From: Saprospiraceae bacterium
GTDB lineage: Bacteria > Bacteroidota > Bacteroidia > Chitinophagales > Saprospiraceae
DNA length: 38,106 nt
Reading direction: 5' to 3'
Assembly: GCA_027009605.1 (NCBI GenBank)
Contig: JALVCY010000203.1
Coordinates: 1-38,106, forward strand
Below, piece by piece: positions 1 to 3,740 of this stretch; within the stretch, counting starts at the first letter, position 1, and each line of letters begins with the position of its first letter. A model generated the notes under the pieces. That model did not search any database, had not been told where the DNA came from, and worked only from the letters and a program-made list of their open reading frames with translations. The position numbers were made by a program, and so were the translations under genes.

Positions 1-480
1 ATAATACAAGTCAAAACCCAATAATCCATTAAAATAGCCTTCATCACCATAGCAATCCATGGCTTCTTGATAGAGCTTTTTGATGGTATTGACGTATTGG
101 CGTTGTTGGGTGGTATCCTTTGTTTGGTTGTAGAATTGGATATTGAATTCGACCCCATCCAAGAAGACGGTTTTGCGCATTCCATCAGCGGCGGGTGCTT
201 TTTCATAGACTTTCTTCCAAAAATCATAGGCACTTTTATAATCTTTGTTTTTTAGCCGTCCCCGATAGATGACGTAGTTATTTTCGGCTTCTTCTTTTTC
301 GGCGTAGGGCAGGTCATCCCATTTGACACAACCGGGTTTGGAAAGATATTTTTTCTTTGGTTTTGGGGGCGTTTTCTCTTCCGGCGTGGTGGTCGTTTCA
401 GAGACGGCAGGCTTAGAAGAAGAGCAATCGGCAAAAAATAGCCCTGTAAAGAGCACAAAAAGGAGCATTAATTTTTTCAT
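1..480 (-). CDS. TPR-type lipoprotein-like protein, partial (runs off left edge); paralog of the 1046..2419 product
   Basis: Manual reverse-strand translation from ATG at 480: MKKLMLLFVLFTGLFFADCSSSKPAVSETTTTPEEKTPPKPKKKYLSKPGCVKWDDLPYAEKEEAENNYVIYRGRLKNKDYKSAYDFWKKVYEKAPAADG..., open to position 1. Signal peptide followed by Cys. Shares NN.VIYR....K.D.K.AY..WKKV...APAADG with the 1046..2419 product. Absent from the ORF track because it is truncated by the window edge. Confidence 0.85.
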   Translation of the reverse strand, partial: MKKLMLLFVLFTGLFFADCSSSKPAVSETTTTPEEKTPPKPKKKYLSKPGCVKWDDLPYAEKEEAENNYVIYRGRLKNKDYKSAYDFWKKVYEKAPAADGMRKTVFLDGVEFNIQFYNQTKDTTQQRQYVNTIKKLYQEAMDCYGDEGYFNGLLGFDLYY

Positions 481-499
481 CGGTAATCATTTTATTTTT

Positions 500-520
500 A
501 GTAACTACGATGTAGTTACT
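500..520. promoter_or_regulatory. Inverted repeat AGTAACTAC-GAT-GTAGTTACT just upstream of the partial lipoprotein gene
   Basis: Perfect 9-bp arms with 3-nt spacer, 20 bp upstream of the ATG at 480 (minus strand). Confidence 0.5.
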
Positions 521-545
521 TTTCGTAAAAATACTAATTATTTTT

Positions 546-706
546 GTAACTGTTTAGGTACCCACTATTTTGGTCAAAAAATGCCCTTTTTGCGCCTGTT
601 TTTGCTAAAATTTTCTCACGTAGGGACGCACGGCCGTGCGTCCCTACGTCAACATACACAAAAACGCCTATTTTTTGCCTTAAAATAGAATCACCTAAAC
701 AGTTAC
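546..706. mobile_element. MITE-like non-coding element, IS66-like ends
   Basis: Perfect 14-bp terminal inverted repeats GTAACTGTTTAGGT (546-559) / ACCTAAACAGTTAC (693-706). Flanked by an identical 8-bp direct repeat TTATTTTT (538-545 and 707-714). Inner arms are also imperfectly complementary. No credible ORF inside. The 5'-GTAA terminus and 8-bp target duplication match IS66-family conventions. Confidence 0.7.
618..649. repeat. 32-bp perfect palindrome ACGTAGGGACGCACGGCCGTGCGTCCCTACGT
   Basis: Sequence equals its own reverse complement; located inside the MITE-like element. Confidence 0.95.
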
Positions 707-724
707 TTATTTTTTTTGACCAAA

Positions 725-867: not shown

Positions 868-900
868 AAAAAAAGCCCTACTAATTTTTAGTAGGGCTTT
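868..900 (-). terminator. Rho-independent terminator for the minus-strand TPR operon
   Basis: AAAGCCCTACTAATTTTTAGTAGGGCTTT; on the minus strand the stem is followed by a T-tract. Confidence 0.75.
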
Positions 901-1005
901 CCCGATAAGTTTTTCAGGCAAGAAGATTAGTTAACTCGAAGTTTTGGCACTCGTAAAGTCTCGTCTTTTATTGAAGTTTTGGTACTTTATTTCCGGAGTT
1001 GGATG

Positions 1006-2420: not shown

Positions 2421-3740
2421 TTAGTAGTATTTTTGTTTGAAAAACCATGATTTATCGGTTAGGCTAAAACTCATTGAAAACTTCACATAAGTCTGATCCA
2501 AGTCTGTCGGAATCCCGCTTTTCCCAATCTCTAATCCAAGATTGACAAAAGAAATGTCCTGTCTGGGAATGATAACGGGGAATCCCCCGCCTATCGTTAT
2601 ACCATAGAAGCGAATTTGCGAATCATTAACAAATCTAGGGTCTTTACCATAGAAGGCGCCGGCTCTAAAGGCCATTTTCTTCCAATAGCTGTCGTAGGCT
2701 TTCAAATCGGGTAGTTTTTCGTAGCCCAAAGAGATTTTACCGGCACTTCCTAGATGGTCTTGGCGGAAGCCTCGAGAAAATTGACTCCAGTTTGCGCCTT
2801 CGTAATTGATGCCTAGGCGATAGAGTGTTTTGAATTCGTAGCCGACCCCGATGGCATAGAGCATGGGGTGTTGGCCGCTATATTTTTCTTCATTCGCATA
2901 CAATACAGAATCTCGGATGCCATAGGCTCTGCTGATTCTATTGATTTTTTGATTCAGGGTGGTTTTTAGGTTGAAACCGGGTTGGATGTAGCCGCCGATG
3001 GTCATTAAATCACCGCGCAAACCATCTTCTTTGGTCTTGTCTTTGAAGTGATAATCCCATATTCCACCTAGTTTTAAGTTGGTGCCTTTGTAGCTATAAT
3101 CTGTGATGAATTCGTTATTGTAAATGTGTACTACCGTGTCCTGAAAGGTGTTTTTCTGTGTTTCGGAGACTTTCCCTAATAAGAAGCCTAGATTGGCGCC
3201 AAAGGCAAAATTTTTGTATTTGGCCGCATTCGACCAGTTAATTTGGTAGGAGCCACCGTTGCCGGAAAATGTATAATCTGCGGTCAAGTCATTTTTGGTG
3301 ATGGTGGTCTCAATGTCATAGCCTACAGTCGTGTAAGGAGCCAAGCCAATCCCCATTCCAAAGCGCCAATTACTTTTTTTCCCTTCCAACTCTCTATTGT
3401 AGTCATTGACTAAGGAAATCCCCAAGTTGATATTGTCCATGGCGCCGGACCAGTTGGTGATGGATGTGTTTTGAGACTTTATGGTGTAGTTGCGTGCACT
3501 AATCCCAATGTCAAACGAAGTCGCCCCCAAAAAGGCAAAAGAAGCCGGATTCATGGGGTTCATGTTGTTTCTGTCATGATAAATAGCCGAAAGCCCCCCC
3601 ATAGAACGGGAAGACAGGGTCTCAAATGACTTGAAGTCCCCCATGCCTAATCTCGAATAAGGGGATTGGACTTGGGGTTGACAAAAAGCAATCGTAGGGA
3701 CAAGTAGTCCAAGGATAAAAAAGAATTTCTTTATGTTCAT
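2421..3740 (-). CDS. Outer-membrane beta-barrel protein of the Bacteroidota 'YSRLGMGD' type
   Basis: 439 aa, signal peptide, N-terminal SPYSRLGMGDF...RSMGG motif, alternating aromatic/polar beta-strand pattern; next to coaX. Confidence 0.75.
   Translation of the reverse strand: MNIKKFFFILGLLVPTIAFCQPQVQSPYSRLGMGDFKSFETLSSRSMGGLSAIYHDRNNMNPMNPASFAFLGATSFDIGISARNYTIKSQNTSITNWSGAMDNINLGISLVNDYNRELEGKKSNWRFGMGIGLAPYTTVGYDIETTITKNDLTADYTFSGNGGSYQINWSNAAKYKNFAFGANLGFLLGKVSETQKNTFQDTVVHIYNNEFITDYSYKGTNLKLGGIWDYHFKDKTKEDGLRGDLMTIGGYIQPGFNLKTTLNQKINRISRAYGIRDSVLYANEEKYSGQHPMLYAIGVGYEFKTLYRLGINYEGANWSQFSRGFRQDHLGSAGKISLGYEKLPDLKAYDSYWKKMAFRAGAFYGKDPRFVNDSQIRFYGITIGGGFPVIIPRQDISFVNLGLEIGKSGIPTDLDQTYVKFSMSFSLTDKSWFFKQKYY

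Follow-up and report, generated by a model that had tools for sequence, protein, structure and literature searches.

What is the 161-bp non-coding segment that lies between two related genes near the start of the Saprospiraceae contig analysed here, and how did it get there? The window (38,106 nt) is the entire contig C203 of genome G000 (4.36 Mb, 708 contigs). The segment (546-706, forward strand) was described in the original prediction as an IS66-like MITE of this length with perfect 14-bp ends and an identical 8-bp flanking repeat, and the sequence is exactly so. The left terminal inverted repeat, GTAACTGTTTAGGT, is at 546-559 on the forward strand and the right one, which reads ACCTAAACAGTTAC on the forward strand, is at 693-706 on the reverse strand. 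The two copies of the target-site duplication TTATTTTT, at 538-545 and 707-714, abut these ends directly, and the whole unit spans 538-714 of the window. Pairing of the inner arms had also been claimed and is borne out by a single-strand fold of -40.5 kcal/mol (z = -8.8), matched by none of the 200 shuffled sequences. Repeat search and folding place the inner arms at 568-591 and 661-684 (both on the forward strand), the left pairing in part with the right, and the arms of 546-706 as a whole pair along much of their length. At the centre is a feature absent from the earlier description, a perfect 32-bp GC-rich palindrome, ACGTAGGGACGCACGGCCGTGCGTCCCTACGT (618-649), which on consensus comparison replaces the probable ancestral core. 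The sole listed ORF that overlaps the element (323-688, forward strand) has its start antisense to the neighbouring lipoprotein gene and is no more than a mechanical frame. The segment is thus built like a MITE, being short, bounded by perfect terminal inverted repeats and without coding capacity.

The copy statistics given here are based on extracted loci, chosen for their resemblance to the copy in the window. G000 contains at least 40 copies with identities of 92-97% (40 scored, from 341 candidates), and the 14-bp end occurs at 332 sites with at most one mismatch as against 13 for a reversed control pattern; the 161-bp segment is therefore not a product of chance. On inspection of 158 distinct end sites, 146 were found by simple matching to be MITE arms and most of the remaining 12 to be variants, and none of the 158 could be read clearly as an IS end in this gapped assembly. 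The copies form sub-families of 57, 78, about 140, 161 and 163 bp, of which the 57-bp one comes close to a perfect palindrome and the 78-bp one consists of the left and right arms with the core missing. Nearly all copies tested are intergenic; at L002 and L010 a frame spans the rejoined flanks, but both look intergenic on reading. Diverged copies (74-80%) occur in 3 of the 4 other genomes of the genus. The 56 genomes outside the genus gave weak matches only, which covered the palindrome or a short piece (G048, G012), and a 17-base end motif is present in 1 of the 99 sampled genera of the Saprospiraceae. No MITE was found in the plasmids and viral contigs searched, nor was the exact core palindrome found in the viral contigs. 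The element is a member of a large, genus-wide bacterial MITE family, which is a kind of mobile DNA already known.

An exact 8-bp duplication flanks 31 of the 42 distinct copies in G000 (40 of 42 with up to two mismatches), where a mean of 0.24 is expected from pairing left flanks with the right flanks of other copies. In a larger copy set the duplication is exact in 57 of 83. The duplications differ from copy to copy, as the original prediction had anticipated, with 28 different sequences in the 42-copy set that are together 82% A+T. The low complexity of TTATTTTT had earlier been a cause for worry, but given this composition it fits a preference for AT-rich targets, and the duplication is real. 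Empty sites are a further trace of mobility. At L080 in the sister genome G003 one copy is nested within another, with GGTAAAAT as the inner and AAATGCTC as the outer duplication, and at L037 in G000 a palindromic repeat, CTTTCCAAAAG...CTTTTGGA, is split by a 57-bp copy and is restored exactly on joining the flanks with one duplication retained. Uninterrupted copies of this repeat are seen at L043 and in the window at 725-753 and 825-853. L080 and L037 both close cleanly. In G002 (C1) and G003 (C158) the orthologous gap, bounded by the same gene pair as in the window, lacks the element, its flanks being too diverged to give an exact pre-insertion site. The MITE copies compared diverge on average by 4.6% from their consensus, and this value together with the mostly intact duplications suggests that the copies spread fairly recently, though they need not still be spreading.

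Which transposase could have moved these copies? The claim of an IS66 derivative stands as far as the IS66 ends and 8-bp duplications are concerned, but the partner is not of the tnpABC type and belongs instead to the single-ORF ISBst12 group. The only complete tnpABC element in the genus (L082, G002) was rejected as partner, its ends, GTAAGCGTCCGAGCAA, being unlike those of the MITE. In the sister-species genome G001, three contig ends carry GTAACTGTTTAGGTCA along with a TnpC N-terminus, and three others carry GTAACTGTTTAGGTAGG behind a peptide (YARLQSVFSTWRKHGYNVFEELKTMI...) that matches the TnpC profile in its final columns, this C-terminal match being short (9 bits over 26 residues; the six loci are L154, L156, L158, L209, L226 and L228). 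All 14 bases at both ends of the G001 element are identical to the MITE end, so that an IS66 element with the same ends, as looked for, does occur in a sister species. Its flanks match across contigs as exact 8-bp duplications in 2 of 3 pairs (AAAATTTC for C294/C131 and ATTGATTC for C231/C221). In G003, a search with a profile built from single-ORF IS66 proteins of other genera in the family found a TnpC N-terminus that carries DUF6444, directly behind GTAACTGTTTAGGTCA at a contig end (L142:1-316, contig C50). The partner is known in both genomes from contig ends, its middle, including the catalytic residues, being unassembled as is expected of a repeat. Taken together, the assembled ends make it very probable that the sister species have a multi-copy, single-gene IS66 element with the 14-bp ends of the MITE and 8-bp duplications. 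Single-ORF IS66 elements from other genera of the family have the ends GTAACTACTCAGGTAC, GTAACTATTCAGGTAC and GTAACTGGTTAGCC, and three of these elements (L102, L103, L106) have exact 8-bp duplications; those of their proteins that were tested are IS66 transposases and have DUF6444 at the N-terminus. Inside the 14-bp ends, the MITE shows no evident resemblance to the IS element. In G000 itself no IS66 transposase of either type was found by PF03050, profile A1 or DNA search among the 708 contigs, many of which break inside these repeats. Two single-end sites with GTAACTGTTTAGGTCA, L161 (G000) and L160 (G002), were tried as IS remnants and rejected for want of a recognisable transposase frame. 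A MITE can outlive its partner, and a partner transposase in the same genome is not a defining feature of a MITE.

On comparing the consensus of 40 palindrome-core copies with that of 27 copies of about 163 bp, both arms are nearly identical and only the core differs, GTAGGGACGCACGGCCGTGCGTCCCTACG in the palindrome form occupying the place of GTAGCCCAGCTACGCTTCAAAAATTGTAGCT. The GC-rich GTAG-type palindrome is thus the core of 40 of the 67 long copies, a ratio (40:27) that is biased toward the form in the window by the way the loci were fetched. Both core forms have moved, since exact duplications are found in 30 of the 40 palindrome-core copies and in 18 of the 27 of the other form. The sister-species copies that were read have a core of the second kind (GTAGCCCAGCTACGCTTCAAAAATTGTAGCT type), and on this comparison it is probably the palindrome form that is derived. 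Both cores start with CACGTAG and a truncated copy, L040, begins exactly at the palindrome, which suggests that the core was exchanged by recombination or template switching at the hairpin. G000, G004 and another family all have palindromes related to the core that lie outside the MITE. One of them, GTAGAGACGCACGGCCGTGCGTCTCTAC, is located outside any MITE at L063:1505-1532 in G004, the fifth genome of the genus, and recurs with A for the first G at L064:1500-1527 in G048, which is of another family; the GTAGAGACGCACGGCCGTGCGTCTCTAC palindromes are a wider repeat family. A literature search for the palindrome sequence gave no match. Because GTAG is paired with CTAC in the perfect palindrome, and is not the unpaired tag of a GTAG REP, the core is REP-like at most. 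We lean slightly toward regarding the sub-family in the window as a chimera, that is, an IS66 MITE in which a REP-like palindrome from a separate repeat family took the place of the core hairpin and which then became commoner than its parent form. If true, one transposon spreads another type of repeat.

The observations on ends and partner bear directly on whether the MITE could belong to some other family that makes 8-bp duplications (e.g. IS256, ISL3, IS1595 or ISAs1), its GTAA start being a coincidence. The missing IS66 transposase in the assembly of the window's own genome is in line with this, but we hold it very improbable, as both ends of the sister-species IS66 TnpC element agree with the MITE end in 14 of 14 bases, that element itself makes 8-bp duplications, and the ends of related single-ORF IS66 elements differ by a few bases only. 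An equally small chance is given to a structured RNA or regulatory cassette (terminator, attenuator or small RNA) that is retained for its function and not for its mobility. Such a cassette would account for the strong fold and for the intergenic placement of nearly all tested copies, and a role as RNA hairpins is known for MITEs (PMC3733652). Yet most copies have exact 8-bp duplications, a nested insertion exists, the orthologous gaps examined lack the element, the size sub-families retain only the ends, and Rfam gave no match at the gathering level, the sub-threshold matches being chance ones only.

The palindrome itself could be held responsible, as a REP that a RAYT tyrosine transposase mobilises while the IS66 ends are carried along passively. 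It does resemble the GTAG-tagged repeats (PMC3733652), it has relatives outside the MITE, and the truncated copy L040 starts at it. However, the palindrome-free 163-bp sub-family has the same duplications (18/27), and duplications adjoin the IS66 ends and not the palindrome. As the main route of spread we regard this as next to impossible; for the family as a whole it is refuted by the palindrome-free copies, although a REP/RAYT route could still account for the exchange of the core.

We are therefore highly confident that the element in the window is an IS66-type MITE mobilised through shared ends by an IS66 TnpC, its sub-family having arisen by core exchange. The evidence is the shared ends, the 8-bp duplications, the empty sites, the many copies and the TnpC element of the sister species; from it we infer that the sister-species TnpC moves the MITE and that such a partner existed in the lineage of the window. 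In the proposed mechanism, TnpC would bind the 14-bp ends GTAACTGTTTAGGT common to IS and MITE, and insertion by an 8-bp staggered cut at AT-rich targets would leave the 8-bp duplication. An IS with a single protein would make mobilisation in trans simple. The older 163-bp form would have exchanged its core for the GC-rich palindrome and the new form would then have spread alone, the enzyme in G000 being presumably either lost or unassembled.

It is instructive to compare these results with known systems. The ISBst12 group of IS66 (single-ORF tnpC, e.g. ISDge4) is alike in its ends, GTAACT.nT.AG, and in its 8-bp duplications, ISDge4 being an active member with ends GTGACTACTCAGCA/GTAACTGCTCAGCA and an 8-bp repeat (PMC12898284). 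The partner element here has a TnpC with an N-terminal DUF6444, and the element in the window differs from that group in being gene-less and 161 bp long with an interior that is unrelated as far as seen. MITECca01 of Cardinium (IS982-derived, PMC9769881) and BrickBuilt of Porphyromonas gingivalis (PMC4596501) are likewise short, gene-less, of high copy number and mostly intergenic, and each is thought to be moved by its parental IS; they differ in transposase family and ends, the partner here being IS66. BrickBuilt has also trapped a foreign repeat in its middle (PMC4596501), whereas here the trapped sequence is a palindrome. The MITE core GTAGGGACGCACGGCCGTGCGTCCCTAC is like the GTAG-tagged REP palindromes (PMC3733652) in being a short GC-rich palindrome that starts with GTAG and has relatives outside the MITE, but here the GTAG is paired and the palindrome lies inside a transposon. 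The core-swapped chimera would be the most unusual feature of the family. MITEs tied to a single-gene IS66 seem little described in the literature, and in this genus nature provides a compact series (57, 78, 140, 161 and 163 bp, and core-swapped) built on the same 14-bp ends, which is useful for finding the minimal DNA needed by an ISBst12-group transposase. Such repeats also help explain why these MAGs are fragmented into hundreds of contigs.

As regards the locus itself, the gene at 1046-2419 is followed downstream by a terminator-like hairpin (869-903, minus strand), and the MITE is situated between this hairpin and the partial lipoprotein gene, whose start codon is at 480. The two flanking genes are paralogous as claimed, their N-terminal parts being related (42% over 111 aa). 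The upstream distance to the start codon of the lipoprotein gene, given earlier as about 58 bp, is 57 bp for the duplication and 65 bp for the edge of the element itself. Since the insert leaves these 65 bp upstream of the start codon, an effect on the expression of the lipoprotein gene is possible, and in general hairpin-rich inserts may influence the expression of adjacent genes. A sigma-70 promoter scan of the gap found none, such a scan being uninformative for Bacteroidota. The stretch from the MITE to the lipoprotein start contains a short palindrome, GTAACTACGATGTAGTTAC (501-519), which begins and finishes like an IS66 end, yet has no 8-bp duplication. On the other side of the MITE are the two copies (723-753 and 823-853) of the palindromic repeat AACTTTCCAAAAGnnnnnAAACTTTTGGAAAG, which is found elsewhere in the genome too (L043). 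Farther along, the protein encoded at 2421-3740 on the reverse strand matches NCBIfam BamG (beta-barrel assembly) with 232.7 bits, as against a curated cut-off of 250.
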